45,929 nt of DNA from Saprospiraceae bacterium (GTDB lineage Bacteria > Bacteroidota > Bacteroidia > Chitinophagales > Saprospiraceae). Below, in pieces: positions 6,166 through 40,163 of this stretch (positions are counted from its first letter, which is position 1; every line of letters starts with the position of its first letter). The notes under the pieces are model-generated. The model saw only the letters and a program-made list of their open reading frames with translations. It was not told the DNA's origin and searched no databases. The DNA is taken from positions 1 to 45,929 of the forward strand of contig JAEUUV010000157.1 of the NCBI GenBank assembly GCA_016787285.1, given 5' to 3'. A program made the translations under genes and the position numbers.

Positions 6166-6483
6166 AAAAAATTCATTTTCTGTACGTGCGGCAAAATCCT
6201 GCCGGCACAAAGGTAGTCCAATCGGCGGCCACGTAACCAAACGGGCCGCCCGGGAAACCCCGTGCAGCCGGTAAAGTTCAGAATGGCATGCCTGCCGTTT
6301 TGTCGGACACCCCGGCGAAATCCTGCCAAAACCCGAATAAATATTCAAGTGGCAAGCCGTTTGCCTGAGCCTGCCGGGTGCTAAAAAGGAAAATTTGCTG
6401 CCAGTGTGACACAAAATCCGTTTTGGCGTATACCGTTTCCGGAAAAATGCCAAAGTTTGCACGAAAATTAGGCTTAGGAGGTT
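6166..6483. other. intergenic, no gene seen
   Basis: About 318 bases between the TraB/GumN start and the 9-bp array. No ORF with coding character, RNA gene or convincing promoter was recognised. It should carry the promoter of the TraB/GumN gene and possibly that of lon; AAAGTTTG at 6452-6459 is one base off the TAnnTTTG type. Confidence 0.5.
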
Positions 6484-6777
6484 TAACGGGTTGAGCGGGT
6501 TTAACGGGTTGGGCGGGTTCGGCCCCAGCCCTTCCGATTATAGAACCCGTTAAACCCGCTCAACCCGTTAAACCCGCTCAACCCGTTAAACCCGCTCAAC
6601 CCGTTAAACCCGCTCAACCCGCTCAACCCGCTCAACCCGTTAAACCCGCTCAACCCGCTCAACCCGTTAAACCCGCCCAACCCGTTAAACCCGCTCAACC
6701 CGCTCAACCCGTTAAACCCGCTCAACCCGTTAAACCCGTTAAACCCGCTCAACCCGTTAAACCCGCTCAACCCGTTA
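6484..6777. repeat. 9-bp minisatellite with inverted arms upstream of lon
   Basis: The left arm 6484-6519 holds four units in the G-rich direction (TAACGGGTT, GAGCGGGTT, TAACGGGTT, GGGCGGGTT). After a 24-base spacer the right arm 6544-6777 holds 26 units of AACCCGTTA, AACCCGCTC or AACCCGCCC. The outer flanks CTTAGG and CCTAAG also match inversely. The right arm ends 38 bases before the lon start codon, so the array is likely part of the lon leader RNA. Apparent ORFs through it are products of the 9-base period. Confidence 0.95.
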
Positions 6778-6815
6778 ACCTAAGTTAATCAAATCCCCTC
6801 CCGCAGCGCTTGAAT

Positions 6816-10675: not shown

Positions 10676-10681
10676 ACTTTT

Positions 10682-10850
10682 GAGCGGGTTTAACGGGTTT
10701 AACGGGTTGAGCGGGTTTAACGGGTTGAGCGGGTTGAGCGGGTTTAACGGGTTGAGCGGGTTTAACGGGTTTAACGGGTTGAGCGGGTTGAGCGGGTTTA
10801 ACGGGTTTAACGGGTTGAGCGGGTTGAGCGGGTTTAACGGGTTGAGCGGG
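10682..10850. repeat. 9-bp minisatellite, G-rich arm (left flank of four-helix gene)
   Basis: Eighteen full units plus a partial one of GAGCGGGTT and TAACGGGTT on the plus strand, with the two variants mixed. It starts 6 bases upstream of the ppgK start codon and ends one base before the stop codon of the four-helix gene. It is the inverted partner of the array at 11330-11410. GGG tracts spaced by 6 bases also fit a G-quadruplex pattern on this strand. Confidence 0.95.
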
Positions 10851-10851
10851 T

Positions 10852-11301
10852 CTACAGAAACGGAGGTGGTTCTGTTGGAAAATTTGGGTTGGAAGTTGAT
10901 ATATTTTTCCCAGGTTTGGCGAATCGTTGGCCGCCTTTTGGAGTAGCGTTCAGGTATTCGATCAGTTTTTGGAGGGCTGCGCCTGTACGCCATGCCATTT
11001 TGTCGAGTGTCACCCGCTCATCTTCGGTAATGTAGCCTGAGTCGAGTGCCCGATAGCCTTGAGAGCGAACCTCACCGCATGAGCCTTTGGAGATGCCGAG
11101 GAAGTAGACAAACTCATTTTTATTGCCGCGCTCATATCCTTCCGCAATACAATCCATTGCTGATCCCGCTGCGGCCTTGATCTGCTTTTTCAATTCCCAA
11201 TCCTGACTAAATCCTTCCTTATCGGTCAACCGCTTGACCAACCTGCACGTCTCGCGCGCCAATTGCCAAGCCTCGATTTCTTCAAATTTTGAAAATTTCA
11301 T
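10852..11301 (-). CDS. four-helix-bundle protein (23S rRNA intervening-sequence type)
   Basis: A 149-residue protein that matches the four-helix-bundle family known from 23S rRNA intervening sequences and related to the diversity-generating-retroelement accessory Avd. Visible hallmarks are the opening [19 protein letters not shown], the second helix [30 protein letters not shown], the third [21 protein letters not shown] and the fourth [25 protein letters not shown], followed by a basic, Pro-rich tail of about 30 residues. Family members are small, basic and often bind nucleic acid; the molecular role here is unknown. The gene is tightly boxed in: its stop codon is one base from one array and its ATG is 28 bases from the opposite array. 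No reverse transcriptase or rRNA is nearby. Confidence 0.88.
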
Positions 11302-11329
11302 GTTGTCCTATTTTTCGTATTTTTTCATC

Positions 11330-11410
11330 AACCCGTTAAACCCGCTCAACCCGCTCAACCCGCTCAACCCGCTCAACCCGCTCAACCCGCTCAACCCGTT
11401 AAACCCGCTC
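11330..11410. repeat. 9-bp minisatellite, C-rich arm (right flank of four-helix gene)
   Basis: Nine units: one AACCCGTTA, six AACCCGCTC, one AACCCGTTA and one AACCCGCTC, followed by AACCT. It lies between the four-helix start codon and the stop codon of the S41-like gene, which is three bases further on. It is inverted relative to 10682-10850, so an RNA spanning both could fold into a long stem with the gene in the loop. Confidence 0.95.
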
Positions 11411-11413
11411 AAC

Positions 11414-12685
11414 CTATTTTCCCCGAACATAATCCAGCACCGGATCGCGGCCCTCTCGGAAGGCTTCGAAGGGCAGTTCGATGGGAATATCGGGCTGGAG
11501 CGTATCCGGATCGCCGGGCAGCACTTGCACCGGACGTGTGCTGTGAAATACTTGCAGGTGGCTGTTGGGGAGGAGCAGGAACGACGGGTCGCCGGAATGG
11601 TTGGGGCGTTGGGCCGGCGGCTCTCCGAGCAGTATGGCGTTGGTTTCGGCGCGGAAGGTGGCGGCTATTTCCACGGCGGCGGCGGCGGTGTAGCGGTTGG
11701 TGGCCACGTAGATTCGGTTGGGCAGGTTGATAAAAGGCGAAGCAGCCAGACGTTTGGCCAGCGCGATTCCGTCGGCGGGGTTGCCACCGTTGTTGAACCG
11801 GAGGTCGAAGAAAAAACGCGCATCGGGGCGGCGCTCCAGCAGCGCGAAGAGGGTATCCACGTATTGCTGAAACGGCGGCAACTGCGATGCGCTCGCGCTG
11901 TCGCCCATCGCAAGCGCCATTTCCCGGCTGTAGCAGCCGTTGTATTGCAGGTAAACAATACGGTCCGACTCCAGCCAGTTCAGGCTGAACACCTGTTTCA
12001 TCGGATCCCAGCGCAGGTCGGGGTTTTTGGGCACAAACTGGGCCTGCTGCAAGGCTGATTTGTCCTTCCGAAAATCGAGCGGATAGGTTTTGACGAAATA
12101 GCGCTGCTTTTTTTCGTCTTCCAGCAGAAGCGCCATCGTGTCGTCTTTGGCTACACCCGCAAGTCGCATGGCCTCGGGGAAACGCAGCCAGGTGGGACCG
12201 TCCTTGCGAGCCGACTCGTTGTTTTCGTTGGCAAAAAGCCGGGCCATTCGGGACAGGGCTTCCGTGGTCTCGATTCCGTTGATCTCCAACACTTTTTTAC
12301 CGAGCGTCGGTTCGAAACGTTTCACCGTGCCGCTTACGTACAGGCCGTCGGCATACCAGCCCAGCCCCACCGGGATCACTTTGCCGGACTGCTGGAGCAG
12401 GGGCGTCAGTTCGACGCGGGTTTGCGCGTCGCGCACCCGGGCGACGATGCTTTGCAATTCAAGGGCAATGTGCAGGTCGCTTTTCCCGCCAAGGTTCTCG
12501 GACAGGTTGGCCAGATCGGTTTCGAACGCCTGCCGGGGATAGTATTTGTGCAGGTTGGGGTGGCGCTTGGGCAGTTCGCGTTGCAGCACGGCGATGTCGG
12601 CGCGCCATTGTTCGACCCCGATTTGTGCCGACACGGAGCCATGGCCCAGGATAATCAGAAGCAGCGTAGCAAGTATCAGTCGCAT
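11414..12685 (-). CDS. S41-peptidase-like secreted protein, nucleophile apparently lost
   Basis: A 423-residue protein with a signal peptide (RLILATLLLIILGHGSVSAQ). The region DARFFFDLRFNNGGNPADG is the substrate-binding part of the S41 (C-terminal processing/tricorn) protease domain, and a PDZ-like part with KKVLEINGIET precedes it. Where S41 enzymes carry the nucleophilic Ser (for example TFSSA), this one reads NRYTAAAAVE, encoded by four GCC codons at 11675-11686. It may therefore be a non-catalytic relative, or my alignment of this loop may be off by a few residues. Start chosen at ATG 12685; ATG 12694 is three codons earlier and equally possible. The gene lies 102 bases after the HerA-like gene on the same strand. 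Confidence 0.78.
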   Translation of the reverse strand: MRLILATLLLIILGHGSVSAQIGVEQWRADIAVLQRELPKRHPNLHKYYPRQAFETDLANLSENLGGKSDLHIALELQSIVARVRDAQTRVELTPLLQQSGKVIPVGLGWYADGLYVSGTVKRFEPTLGKKVLEINGIETTEALSRMARLFANENNESARKDGPTWLRFPEAMRLAGVAKDDTMALLLEDEKKQRYFVKTYPLDFRKDKSALQQAQFVPKNPDLRWDPMKQVFSLNWLESDRIVYLQYNGCYSREMALAMGDSASASQLPPFQQYVDTLFALLERRPDARFFFDLRFNNGGNPADGIALAKRLAASPFINLPNRIYVATNRYTAAAAVEIAATFRAETNAILLGEPPAQRPNHSGDPSFLLLPNSHLQVFHSTRPVQVLPGDPDTLQPDIPIELPFEAFREGRDPVLDYVRGK

Positions 12686-12787
12686 GTGTTGCATTTGTTC
12701 CCACAGTTGGAGCCGCGGGCGGAAAATGGAGTGATTTCGGGACGAACCCGGGAGTAGAAATCGAATCAATCGGTTTAATCGAATCAA

Positions 12788-20568: not shown

Positions 20569-20583
20569 CGGTTTCAAAAAGGT

Positions 20584-20684
20584 TTAACGGGTTGAGCGGG
20601 TTTAACAGGTTACGGGTTAAAAACCCGCTCAACCCGCTCAACCCGCTCAACCCGCTCAACCCGCTCAACCCGCTCAACCCGCTC
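20584..20684. repeat. 9-bp minisatellite with inverted arms upstream of secA
   Basis: The left arm 20584-20610 has three G-rich units (TAACGGGTT, GAGCGGGTT, TAACAGGTT), then a spacer, then the right arm 20622-20684 has seven identical AACCCGCTC units. Flanks AAAAAGG and CCTTTTTT also match inversely. The secA start codon is 23 bases after the right arm. Confidence 0.93.
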
Positions 20685-20707
20685 AACCTTCAAACCTTTT
20701 TTAGAAG

Positions 20708-23700
20708 ATGTTAAGCCTACTCAAAAAAATACTCGGAACCAAGCAAGACCGCGACATGGGCAAGTACCAGGGCACGGTGGATCAGATCAATGCCAATTTT
20801 GCTGCGTACCAGAACCTGTCGAACGACGACCTGCGCCGCAAAACGCTGGAGTTCCGCGACCGCATAGCCGAATACCTGAAGGACATTGACGCGGAAATTG
20901 CCGCCGTCAACCAGCAGGCCCTCGACGCCGAAGATTTCAACGACAAGGAATCGTTGTTTAAAGAGGTGGACGAACTGCGCAAGCAGCGCGACAAAGCCCT
21001 CGAAGAAATCCTGCTCGACATCTTGCCCGAAGGCTTTGCCGTGGTGAAAGAGGCCAGTCGGCGTTTTTCCCAAAACGAGGAAATCACGGTGACCGCCACC
21101 GACCACGACCGCAGCCTCGCCGCACAACCAGGCAAAACCTACGTGCGCATCGAAGGCGACCGGGCCATCTGGAAAAACCGCTGGACGGCTGCCGGCGGCG
21201 ACATCACCTGGAATATGGTGCACTACGACGTACAGCTCATCGGCGGTATGGTGCTGCACGACGGAAAGATCGCCGAGATGGCCACCGGCGAGGGCAAAAC
21301 CCTCGTGGCTACCCTGCCCGCCTACCTCAACGGCGTGGCCGGCGAAGGCGTACACATCGTGACCGTGAACGACTACCTCGCCCGGCGCGACTCGGAGTGG
21401 GTCGGCCCCATCTACGAGTTCCTGATGCTCACGGTGGACTGCATTGACAAGTACCGCCCCCACTCGCCCGAACGCATCCGCGCATATCGTTGCGACATTA
21501 CCTTCGGCACCAACGCCGAGTTCGGCTTCGATTACCTGCGCGACAACATGGTCGTCAGCCCCGACGAACTCGTGCAGCGCAAACACCACTACGCCATCGT
21601 GGACGAGGTGGACTCCGTGCTCATTGACGACGCGCGCACGCCGCTTATCATTTCCGGCCCCGTCACCCGCGGCGCCGAAGACCAGGAGTACGTGGACCTC
21701 AACCCCACCGTGCGCCGCCTGTTCGAGGAGCAAACGAAACTCGCCACCCGCTTTTTGGCGGATGCCCGCAAACTGTTTTCCGAAGGGAAATCCGGCCTTG
21801 AAGAAGGCCAGGCGGGCATGTCCCTGCTGCGCACGCACCGTGCCCTGCCCAAGTATCGCCCGCTCATCAAATTCCTCAGCGAGGAGGGCGTGAAAGTGAC
21901 CCTGCAAAAAGCCGACGATTTCTACATGCAGGAAAACAACAAGCGCATGCCCGAGGTGGACCGCGAGTTGTTGTTCACCATTGACGAAAAAAACCGCAAC
22001 GTGGAACTCACCGAAAAAGGCGTGGAGTTCCTCAGCAAATTCAGCAACGACCCCAACTTTTTTATCCTGCCCGACATCGGCATCGAGTTGGTCAACATTG
22101 ACCACAACCCCGAACTCAGCCCCGCCGAAAAAACTGAAGCCAAAGAGCGCCTGTCGCAAGATTACGGGGTGAAAAGCCGCCGCGTGCATGCCATCCAGCA
22201 ACTGCTCAAGGCGTATACCCTGTTTGAAAAAGACAATGAGTACATCGTGACCCCCGAAGGAGACGTCAAGATCGTGGACGAGCAGACGGGCCGCGTCATG
22301 GAAGGCCGCCGCTACTCCGACGGCCTGCACCAGGCCCTCGAAGCCAAGGAAAACGTGAAGGTGGGCGAAATCACCCAGACCTACGCCACCGTCACCCTGC
22401 AGAACTACTTCCGCATGTACCACAAACTGTCGGGCATGACCGGTACCGCCGAAACGGAAGCCAAGGAATTGTGGGACATCTACAAACTTGATGTGGTGGT
22501 GATCCCCACCAACCGAAAGATCGTGCGCGATGACCAGGAAGACCTCGTGTACAAAACCGCCCGCGAGAAGTACAATGCCGTCATTGACGAAATTGTCCGC
22601 CTGCGCGAAGCGGGCCGCCCTACACTCGTGGGTACCACTTCGGTAGAAATATCGGAATTGCTCTCGCGTATGTTGCGCCTGCGCGGCATTGACCACAACG
22701 TGCTGAACGCCAAGCAGCACCAGCGCGAAGCCGAAATCGTCGCCGAAGCCGGTCTGGCCGGCAAGGTCACCATCGCCACCAACATGGCCGGCCGGGGTAC
22801 CGACATCAAACTCGGCCCGGGCGTGAAAGACGCCGGCGGTTTGGCCATCATCGGTACCGAACGCCACGAAAGCCGCCGGGTGGACCGCCAGTTGCGCGGG
22901 CGCGCCGGCCGTCAGGGCGACCCCGGTTCCTCGCAGTTCTACGTGTCCCTCGAAGACAGCCTCATGCGCCTGTTCCAGAGCGACCGCATCGCCGGCCTTA
23001 TGGATAAAATGGGCCACAAGGAAGGCGACGTGATCCAGCACTCCATGGTCACCAAGTCCATCGAACGCGCTCAGAAAAAAGTGGAGGAAAACCACTTCGG
23101 CACGCGGAAACGCCTGCTCGAATACGACGACGTGATGAACATCCAGCGCGAGGCCATTTACAAAAAACGCCGCAACGCCCTGTTTGGCGACCGCCTCGCC
23201 GTGGACATCAACAACGCCTTCCTGTCCATCACCAACGAACTCGTGCATGTACACCGCCAGGACGGCGACTTCGAAACCTTCCGCCTCGACGCCATCCGCA
23301 CCATTGGCGTAGACCCGGAAATAGACCCCGTCTGGTTCAAAAGCGCCCCGCTCGAAACCGTGTTGCACACCTTTCAGGCGCAAGTGTTCGACCTGTACAG
23401 CCACAAGCGCCGGCAGGTGTCCGAGCGTCTGCTGCCGATCATCCGCGATGTACATACCCGCGAAGGCGATCGCTACAAACGTATCGTGGTGCCGTTCACC
23501 GACGGCGCACTCGGCCTGAACATCAGCGCCGACATGGAGGAAGCCATCCACACCAACGGCAAGAGCATCATGCACGACGTGGAAAAAGTGGCCACACTCG
23601 CCCTCATTGACGACGCCTGGAAGGAGCACCTCCGCAATGTGGACGACCTGAAAGAATCCGTGCAGGGCGCTTCATTCGAGCAAAAAGACCCGCTCGTGAT

Positions 23701-31352: not shown

Positions 31353-31832
31353 ATGGAACTGACCGAACGCATCGCACAACTTCTGGAAGAACAGTACGCA
31401 ACCGACGAAAACCTCTCGGATTGTTTCACCGTGGACATCGAACTCCGGCCCGGGAACAAACTCTACGTATTTGTGGACAGCGACTCCGGGATCAACTTCG
31501 ACAAGTGTAAAAAAATAAGCCGCCACCTCGAAAGCCACCTCGACACCAACGGCTGGCTCGGCGCCAAATACGTGCTGGAAGTCAGCAGCCCCGGCCTCGG
31601 TCGTCCCCTGCGTTTCTTGCGCCAGTACCAGAACAACCTGGGCCGCACCGTGGTCGTCACCCGGCTGGACGACACCCGCGAGCGGGGTATCCTCAAAGCC
31701 GCCGATGAGTCGCAGGTCGTCATCGAACAGGCCGTCGTGGAAAAGGACGGCAAAAAGAAAAAGGACGTGCTTGTGGACCTGTCCATTCCGTTTGATCAAA
31801 TCAAATCAACCGTAATCAAAGCCGCATTCTAA
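31353..31832 (+). CDS. rimP: ribosome maturation factor RimP
   Basis: A 159-residue RimP, needed for 30S ribosomal subunit maturation. The N-terminal domain ends with NKLYVFVDSDSGINFDKCKKISRHLESHLD and the family signature YVLEVSSPGLGRPLR follows; the C-terminal SH3-like domain has RTVVVTRLDDTRERGILKAADESQVVIE. The length is typical. ATG 31353 is chosen; an upstream in-frame ATG at 31308 lies inside the hairpin and would add 15 unlikely residues. It is the first gene of a rimP-nusA operon, the usual order in bacteria. Confidence 0.95.
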   Translation: MELTERIAQLLEEQYATDENLSDCFTVDIELRPGNKLYVFVDSDSGINFDKCKKISRHLESHLDTNGWLGAKYVLEVSSPGLGRPLRFLRQYQNNLGRTVVVTRLDDTRERGILKAADESQVVIEQAVVEKDGKKKKDVLVDLSIPFDQIKSTVIKAAF

Positions 31833-31885
31833 CTCAAATACCCACTCAAAACCCCACTCAAAACTCAAAACTCAACACTCAAAAC
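31833..31885 (+). repeat. A/C-rich tandem repeat between rimP and nusA
   Basis: Imperfect copies of ACTCAAA / ACTCAAAAC fill the 61-base gap before nusA. The stretch has no G and cannot form strong structure, so it may act as an open ribosome loading region. Its role is unknown. Confidence 0.7.
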
Positions 31886-31893
31886 TGTACAAC

Positions 31894-35429: not shown

Positions 35430-35436
35430 ATTGATT

Positions 35437-35575
35437 GATTACATGATTGCAGATTACATGATTGTTGATTTTAGAAGTATTCGTAGCACACACAACCATA
35501 GTTTGACCAAAAGCAATGCGGTCAACTCTACGCACTTCTAAAATCAACAATCATGTAATCTGCAATCATTTAATC
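35437..35575. repeat. 139-bp MITE-like element, second copy
   Basis: Arms 35437-35477 and 35535-35575 (41 bases, one mismatch). The centre, read on the minus strand, matches the centre of the element at 1245-1383 (GTAGAGTTGACCGCATTGC...). Thus the two copies have opposite orientation. It fills the gap between helicase and purC, which converge. Confidence 0.88.
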
Positions 35576-35591
35576 ACTTTTTATACCCGCT

Positions 35592-37665: not shown

Positions 37666-37795
37666 AAAGTGTCACAGAGGCTCACAGAGTTTGAGAGGAC
37701 ACAGAGTTTTTTTGTCATTCCGTAAGGAATCTGTCCACGCTTAGTCGGTAAAAACTCTGTGTCCTCTCAAACTCTGTGAGCCTCTGTGACACTTT
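37666..37795. repeat. 130-bp element with perfect 46-bp inverted repeats
   Basis: Arms 37666-37711 and 37750-37795 are exact reverse complements over 46 bases and contain tandem words of the form CACAGAG. The centre is 38 bases. A shorter related palindrome (GGGGTGTCACAGAGTTATTCCCC) lies at 37634-37656. It sits between the mqnD terminator and the ald promoter. Confidence 0.9.
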
Positions 37796-40069: not shown

Positions 40070-40150
40070 GGTTGGAGGGTTTCGGGTTGGAAGGTTTCGG
40101 GTTACTCCGGTACTCCAACCAGAAACCTTCCAACCCGAAACCCTCTAACC
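40070..40150. repeat. inverted GGGTT/AACCC repeat in leader of DUF255 gene
   Basis: Arms 40070-40103 and 40117-40150 (34 bases, two mismatches) contain tandem GGTTTCGGGTTGGAA-type units. The plan, GGGTT arm then AACCC arm just upstream of a start codon with flanks AAAAGG and CCTTTT, is that of the 9-bp arrays upstream of secA, though the unit sequence differs. Confidence 0.85.
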
Positions 40151-40163
40151 CGAAACCTTTTTT

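Follow-up and report, generated by a model that had tools for sequence, protein, structure and literature searches.

We lean towards reading positions 10680 to 11414 (minus strand) of the window, the 45,929-nt stretch of DNA analysed here, as one copy of a dispersed, mobile-like element. In this element a gene for an IVP/Avd-like four-helix-bundle (4HB) protein lies in the loop of a split hairpin, the arms of the hairpin are inverted arrays of short repeats, and the unit would be copied with the help of its protein. Arms and gene form one unit, and related proteins show a strong tendency to have related arm repeats. The same genomes also have scattered hairpins that lack a gene, and an orthologous site may contain the full unit, only a hairpin or neither of them. 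From these observations we infer that the 4HB protein recognises the hairpin and takes part in copying it. In related bacteria such 4HB genes are numerous and mostly boxed in this way, and the scattered gene-less hairpins accompany them, apparently as a kind of spreading element that has been undescribed so far. Within the part of the open-licence literature that was covered, no report was found in which PF05635/4HB genes outside rRNA are linked with inverted short repeats at their flanks.

The element in the window

The gene at the centre of the element (10852–11301, minus strand) codes for a protein of 149 aa and was identified from the list of open reading frames and its profile matches. 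It is enclosed by two arrays of 9-bp units detected with TRF: a G-rich inverted array of GGGTTTAAC/GGGTTGAGC units on its 3' side (10680–10851, plus strand; 19.1 copies) and a C-rich inverted array of AACCCGCTC/AACCCGTTA units on its 5' side (11328–11414, plus strand; 9.7 copies). The remaining ORFs listed between 10680 and 11414 are overlapping mechanical frames; the unit has a single gene, that for the 4HB protein. A first-pass annotation, made from the letters of the sequence, had described exactly this layout of inverted 9-bp arrays around a single gene, and the layout held up. Its statement that the stop codon lies beside the G-rich array was likewise correct, the two adjoining directly, whereas the distance from the ATG (11301) to the C-rich array is 26 bp and not 28 bp. 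The left neighbour had been named ppgK, and it is indeed a gene for a polyphosphate--glucose phosphotransferase (NF045942, 297.8 bits versus a cut-off of 250). The right neighbour (11414–12730, with its stop at 11414) had been called S41-like, a label that we do not retain, as profile searches against Pfam and NCBIfam returned nothing at E 0.001. The element sits between protein-coding ORFs and not inside a helix of an rRNA gene, as judged from the neighbour profiles and from an Rfam scan, in which no family was matched in the window. A pattern of three repeat units occurs 54 times in the window and not once in 200 dinucleotide-block shuffles of it; a related pattern gave 226 overlapping matches in the whole genome versus none for the reversed control.

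The protein matches PF05635 (E 1.3e-22, 80.4 bits versus a cut-off of 33.8) and TIGR02436 (E 5.1e-21), which confirms that it belongs to the family first known from the intervening sequences (IVS) of 23S rRNA. In two papers, PF05635 is described as functionally uncharacterised. No Pfam family besides PF05635 was found in the window protein, and neither a catalytic domain nor a transposase was recognised. Its AlphaFold model, computed from four sequences (pLDDT 79.7), has four main helices and a disordered, proline-rich C-terminal tail. The closest fold to this model is 2GSC, then 2RLD, with Avd (4DWL) next (TM(target) 0.85, E 0.18); at the level of sequence, 2GSC was the only structure matched (E 5.1e-7).

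Further 4HB genes and hairpins in the same genome

The window is contig C233 of a genome of 5.56 Mb in 345 contigs (G000), in which a profile search of the contigs gave six PF05635 matches. One of these, on contig C106 (L006), has the sole reverse transcriptase match of the genome directly downstream and is probably part of a diversity-generating retroelement with an Avd-like gene. The other five all lie between inverted repeats, and the units differ as judged by eye: GGGTTNNNC in the window and on C88, a GGTTTGAAGG-like unit on C294, TTTTGAG on C258 and TGATTACATGATTG on C176. In the arm test described below, C88, C176 and the window scored above 40 and C294 scored 39, while C258 was outside the scored set.

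All four of these families are represented in the window itself, by hairpins without a gene or by single arms. To the family of the window element belong a hairpin at 6480–6778 before the lon ORF, made of a G-arm (6480–6519), a 24-bp loop and a C-arm (6544–6778), and a second one at about 20580–20690 with a short G-arm and a C-arm at 20622–20688, which stops approximately 18 bp short of the start codon of an ORF of 1116 aa at 20708, the putative secA of the first-pass annotation. Both were recovered with TRF, so that the array-only copies of the two-armed plan, proposed in the first-pass annotation, are real. Assigned by eye, a single arm of (ACTCAAA)n type (31832–31886) belongs to the family of the C258 arms, a TGATTACATGATTG hairpin (35436–35576) to that of the C176 arms, and a GGTTTCGGGTTGGAAGG hairpin (40070–40159) is related to the C294 arms; a second TGATTACATGATTG hairpin lies at 1191–1446. 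In addition there is a hairpin of CACAGAGGCTCACAGAG-type units at 37666–37795; inspection by eye showed no partner for it among the five 4HB genes with arms in G000. A motif near GTAGAGTACACC/GGTGTACTCTACG recurs in the loops of hairpins whose arms belong to different families (L119, L128, L137, L117 and the window hairpins at 1191–1446 and 35436–35576), and it may be a palindromic element in its own right or a core that has been conserved.

Inverted arms around the 4HB genes of the genus

PF05635 was found in 39 out of 42 genomes of the genus, with 210 matches in all and at most 14 per genome. The sequences of 103 of them (100 regions) were fetched, these being the higher-scoring ones among the matches listed, with those near contig starts skipped. 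Together with the window gene this gave 104 genes, from which four were dropped as broken or short-flanked; 15 further 4HB loci stand outside this count. The arm test asked for matching inverted arms within the 400-bp flanks at a score of at least 40. Such arms were present in 82 of the 100 usable genes, versus 10 of 478 other ORFs of the same regions and 10 of 482 combinations of upstream and downstream flanks from different genomes; these genomes are related, and the statistics here and below are uncorrected for kinship. The remaining 18 genes scored under 40, some of them without visible arms.

The most ordinary explanation would be a small orphan gene with terminators or other intergenic hairpins around it by chance, and the location of the elements in gaps between genes, rarely between divergent pairs (5 of 93 loci), would suit it. 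It is contradicted by the excess of armed 4HB genes over control ORFs, and it conflicts also with the findings that the arms follow the protein and that paralogues match from arm to arm (see below), which makes it extremely unlikely. A chance juxtaposition of gene and arrays, already denied in the first-pass annotation for the window gene, is rejected by the arm survey and by the correlation between arms and proteins.

The median size of the element in the genus is 620 bp. In 53 of the 82 cases the gene lies in the loop of a single split hairpin; a complete hairpin is additionally present on one side in 23 and on both sides in six. The polarity is constant: the GT content of the left arm exceeds 0.55 in 70 of the 82, is intermediate in 12 and falls below 0.45 in none. 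Among the units, assigned to families by eye from the flanks of 80 out of the 104 genes, are GGTGGACGGTAGAC, GCAGTGGCAGTA, GTCCTGAGTCCTAA and GATGAAT. Hence the expectation that related genomes would have 4HB genes boxed by inverted arrays was borne out, whereas the 9-bp GGGTT unit was not found to be a general feature. It is abundant in only three of the 42 genomes and without a match in 36, and was therefore rejected as a hallmark. What is general are inverted short repeats, mostly GT-rich to AC-rich, the unit of which differs between 4HB subfamilies.

Coupling of arms and protein

Comparison of paralogues shows that arms and gene behave as a unit, since the DNA they share runs from the outer edge of one arm to that of the other. 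The window element is 85% identical over 735 bp to its paralogue on contig C88, exactly from 10680, the outer edge of the G-rich array where the alignment ends, to 11414, the outer edge of the C-rich array where it starts, and there is no alignment beyond the arms. Two copies on contig C12 of genome G012 are 96.4% identical over 499 bp from arm to arm, and those on C13 and C66 of G032 are 90% identical over 496 bp.

The similarity of the arms is correlated with the identity of the proteins. For 4040 pairs of different sites among 91 loci the correlation was r = 0.457, a value reached in 0 of 2000 permutations. An arm similarity of at least 0.6 was found in 40 of 207 pairs with at least 50% protein identity versus six of 3833 pairs below 50%. 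A 4HB gene of a Prevotellaceae MAG, whose product shares only 30% identity with the window protein, has GCAGT arms, and so have three of its best four relatives within the genus (52–56% identity), the fourth (49%) having another unit. At one site held by two 4HB lineages, with 34–37% identity to each other, the arms differ. Furthermore, in 46 of 52 same-site pairs, which share members and are thus non-independent, the match between the arms within a locus was closer than the match with the arms of the orthologue (five opposite, one tie). Therefore, both arms change together. The correlation between arms and protein could stem from co-inheritance alone, without a need for recognition.

Hairpins without a gene

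In 754 kb around the 4HB loci we counted 81 other hairpins, including one artefact from a run of N and some of other types. Solo hairpins match the 4HB arms of their own genome in 29 of 401 pairs versus 132 of 6241 for arms of other genomes (0 of 1000 permutations). In 200 kb from six 4HB-bearing genomes of the genus 14 such hairpins were found, seven of them with tandem arms, and none in 200 kb from the three 4HB-less genomes (G002, G013 and G035).

Two repeat families were followed through all 42 genomes. Matches to the GGGTTNNNC array numbered 326 in G062, 249 in G000 and 18 in G022, one to three in three others, and the remaining 36 genomes had none. G000, G062 and G022 each have a GGGTT-armed 4HB gene; in G062 the contig begins inside the gene and the right arm alone is visible. 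GATGAAT matches occur in 23 of the 42 genomes, 12 of which have 58 or more. A GATGAAT-armed 4HB gene was identified in six of these 12 (G006, G008, G022, G026, G030 and G032). In the other six, with 79–152 array matches each, none was found among the loci read, which were one in G015, its only match, and part of the 4HB matches in G034 (eight), G016, G005 and G027 (four each) and G031 (three). Either the partner lies in unread or unassembled loci, or the arrays outlive the gene, or another 4HB protein serves them. A strict rule of one repeat and one gene is thus half borne out, holding for three of three array-rich genomes with GGGTTNNNC and for six of 12 with GATGAAT.

The neighbours of ppgK are not conserved: in none of the other 29 ppgK loci was an S41-like or a 4HB gene found within 1.5-kb flanks. 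For this reason, the ftsA region was taken for a comparison with empty sites. It was obtained for 30 of the 42 genomes, and 29 gaps between ftsA and ftsZ were readable. Classed by eye, seven of them hold a 4HB gene, five only an array hairpin, three another palindrome and five other DNA, while nine measure at most 76 bp. The three states foreseen in the first-pass annotation (gene plus array, array only and empty) hence occur at one orthologous site. Between ftsQ and ftsA, a 4HB gene is present in seven of 25 genomes, in one of them degenerate, and the filled site of G032 and the empty site of G024 have flanking sequence in common.

The abundance of the hairpins, at tens per Mb (81 in 754 kb, 14 in 200 kb) versus at most 14 PF05635 matches per genome, raises the question of which came first. 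The arrays may be born by the host or be separate entities, growing by slippage and by template switching at quasi-palindromes, and the 4HB gene would then be a passenger homing into the loops of those arrays that its protein recognises. Such homing would also yield the correlation between arms and protein, and it accords with the single site that holds 4HB lineages with differing arms and with the six GATGAAT-rich genomes in which no GATGAAT-armed gene was among the loci read. It is at odds with the lack of hairpins in 200 kb of the three 4HB-less genomes and with the abundance of the GGGTTNNNC family only where a GGGTT-armed 4HB gene is present. The common outer boundary of arms and gene in paralogues speaks against it as well, although insertion into arrays of the same family could mimic this. 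On balance, we judge this sequence of events rather unlikely. Because of the GATGAAT result, our confidence in a mobile-like unit was lowered slightly and the weight given to a prior origin of the hairpins was raised by a similarly small amount.

Transcription and orientation

In 22 of 98 genes of the genus a promoter-like TAnnTTTG box, which we take to be the -7 element of Bacteroidota, lies no more than 75 bp ahead of the ATG; it occurs in 0 of 95 stretches further upstream and in three of 101 downstream. Some 4HB messages therefore need not include the left arm, which weakens a reading of the element purely as an RNA stem. The window gene has no such box in the 26 bp between arm and ATG, and thus its promoter may lie in the arm or upstream of it.

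Among 93 genus loci the 4HB gene runs in the direction of both neighbours 45 times and opposite to both 20 times, while 23 loci have convergent and five have divergent neighbours. The preference for sense over antisense within tandem gene pairs (45 versus 20; two-sided binomial p 0.0026) is one of the points in favour of an element that acts as RNA in the manner of an IVS. The arms would pair in the transcript, RNase III would excise the 4HB loop, and the protein would bind or stabilise the RNA, with spread by a retro-route. Protein family and stem-plus-ORF layout are as in the 23S rRNA IVS (PMC4990558, in the sections available), and Avd, a distant fold relative, works with a reverse transcriptase (PMC10053308, in the sections available). 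The window unit also folds strongly as RNA (-310 kcal/mol, z -14.9 versus 20 shuffles), which is not specific since any such inverted array would fold so. Against spread at the RNA level stand, besides the boxes near the ATG, the 20 loci antisense to both neighbours, the 23 between convergent genes and the distribution of reverse transcriptases, so that we consider it quite unlikely.

Candidate partner enzymes

The number of 4HB genes per genome does not track the presence of a reverse transcriptase (on average 4.75 without and 5.15 with one, p 0.70), and G006 has 11 PF05635 matches without a match to this enzyme. A reverse transcriptase acting in trans is therefore not supported.

A Y1 transposase (IS200/RAYT-type) might mobilise the unit in trans, as in a REPIN-like system. 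The number of 4HB genes is correlated with that of Y1 genes (Spearman 0.40, p 0.008, uncorrected for phylogeny and genome size), and the three 4HB-less genomes are all without Y1 (Fisher p 0.005). It would fit, too, that no target-site duplication was seen at the arm ends, the edges of which are blurred by the repeats. However, six of 20 Y1 loci have matching inverted flanks (score of at least 40), and their palindromes are by eye of another type, for example CCGACCTCGTCGAGGTC with GTTGGTAG (130 bp on each side). The GGGTTNNNC and GATGAAT arm patterns occur in none of the 20 Y1 stretches fetched, and G061 and G031 have five 4HB matches each and no Y1 match. As a direct partner Y1 is accordingly not supported, and mobilisation by it appears very unlikely. 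The palindromes at Y1 loci (L361, L362, L367, L368) look like a second, REP-resembling hairpin system in these genomes.

Possible mode of spread and relation to known systems

Under the reading that we favour, a mobile-like unit copied with the help of its protein, the 4HB protein, which like its relatives is probably a pentamer, would recognise its own arm repeat in the form of a folded hairpin, be it single-stranded or cruciform DNA during replication, or RNA. It would then assist in placing new copies, of the whole unit or of derivatives that lack the gene, in intergenic gaps by way of host polymerases or recombination, with no transposase of its own. Some pressure on arm pairing, through template switching between the arms or selection for binding, may keep the arms matched while the sequence of the unit drifts fast. 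Against such mobility it has to be said that transposition itself was not observed and that repeat family and gene do not always coincide, as in the case of GATGAAT. Neither a target-site duplication nor a fixed target motif was seen among the words counted at 162 arm ends, where the repeat arms blur the edges. The lack of a recognised catalytic domain and of an identifiable partner enzyme also counts against it, as do the 18 genus genes below the arm threshold and the weaker arms in other genera.

The nearest relative in layout is the 23S rRNA IVS with its S23p/IVP ORF, known from Coxiella and Leptospira, in which a PF05635 4HB ORF is likewise enclosed by inverted arms; its terminal inverted repeats are cut by RNase III and its mobility has long been suspected, according to the part of the source at hand (PMC4990558). 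The element described here differs in its place in a gap between protein genes, in arms that consist of tandem short repeats varying with the protein subfamily, and in its occurrence in several copies per genome along with gene-less hairpins. REPINs and their RAYT genes resemble it in that hairpins dispersed between genes are accompanied by a gene which has their repeat on its flanks (PMC3116915, as far as its text was available), apart from the GATGAAT exceptions. Here, however, the partner is a 4HB protein (PF05635) instead of a Y1 transposase, the arms are tandem arrays of many unrelated units, and a single genome (G000, G032) may contain two genes with arms of one family. It also differs from insertion sequences and MITEs, as no transposase is encoded and the 4HB gene is the only gene of the unit. 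Avd of the diversity-generating retroelements, for which homology to PF05635 has been suggested (PMC10053308, in the portion available), is a fold relative well below 2GSC; the window element has no adjoining reverse transcriptase, the sole match in its genome being on C106 and not on C233. Since neither the rRNA site nor the Y1 partner is found here, we call the element IVS-like with respect to protein and layout, and REPIN-like with respect to its behaviour and its organisation in the genome, with a wholly new class as a live possibility.

Such a class would be present in at least Bacteroidota and Cyanobacteriota. In it, a lone oligomeric 4HB protein would recognise its own fast-changing repeat hairpin and drive the copying of it, with or without the gene and without a transposase, recombinase or reverse transcriptase of its own. 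In this full form the idea is tentative, and we would sooner expect it to fail than to hold. If true, it would include as special cases the IVSs of rRNA, the IVP genes of cas loci, many of the Bacteroidota hairpins made of short repeats and perhaps the cyanobacterial STRRs. The link between arm repeats and PF05635 subfamily suggests for this family a role that can be tested, namely to bind repeat hairpins and spread them, and could explain a large class of intergenic short-repeat hairpins, the origin of rRNA IVSs and the IVP genes within cas operons. It also raises a puzzle, as two arms change together and yet stay complementary, and DNA would be moved without a known transposase.

Occurrence beyond the genus

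Of the 247 Bacteroidota genomes sampled, 193 contain PF05635. In 70 loci from other genera of this phylum, high-scoring among the matches listed and not a random draw, the arms are weaker. A score of at least 40 was reached by 12 of the 70 versus six of 4830 mismatched pairs, at least 30 by 30 versus 66, and at least 25 by 43 versus 191. One contig titled as a Thermoanaerobaculia MAG (L229/L270) equals contig C725 of a genome placed in the genus in size and start, so the title or the binning is probably wrong.

No match to PF05635 was found in phage records. Among plasmid records there were 21 with a match, 20 of them cyanobacterial, and eight of the 14 loci read from these had arms with a score of at least 25 versus 18 of 182 mismatched pairs. 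A 4HB gene of Nostoc edaphicum, for instance, has TAGGGAGTAGGGAG/CTCCCTACTCCC arms.

Heptamer repeats of the STRR type occur in heterocystous cyanobacteria, and their presence in the RNase P RNA gene was reportedly the subject of a study from 1997. Some of the cyanobacterial 4HB genes are similarly framed by short tandem units, GGGAGTA being one example; our searches, made outside the classical STRR loci, revealed no link between STRRs and 4HB genes.

Genes annotated as 23S_rRNA_IVP have been reported in cas loci as an associated function, with no mention of flanking inverted repeats in the portion of the report available (PMC3936711). Similarly, we found some 4HB genes within cyanobacterial cas operons, located in the cas10–cmr3 and cas6–cas4 intervals (L306, L303, L349), and inverted short repeats adjoin them. 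Insertion of the element is a plain alternative to an associated function for the IVP genes at these loci.
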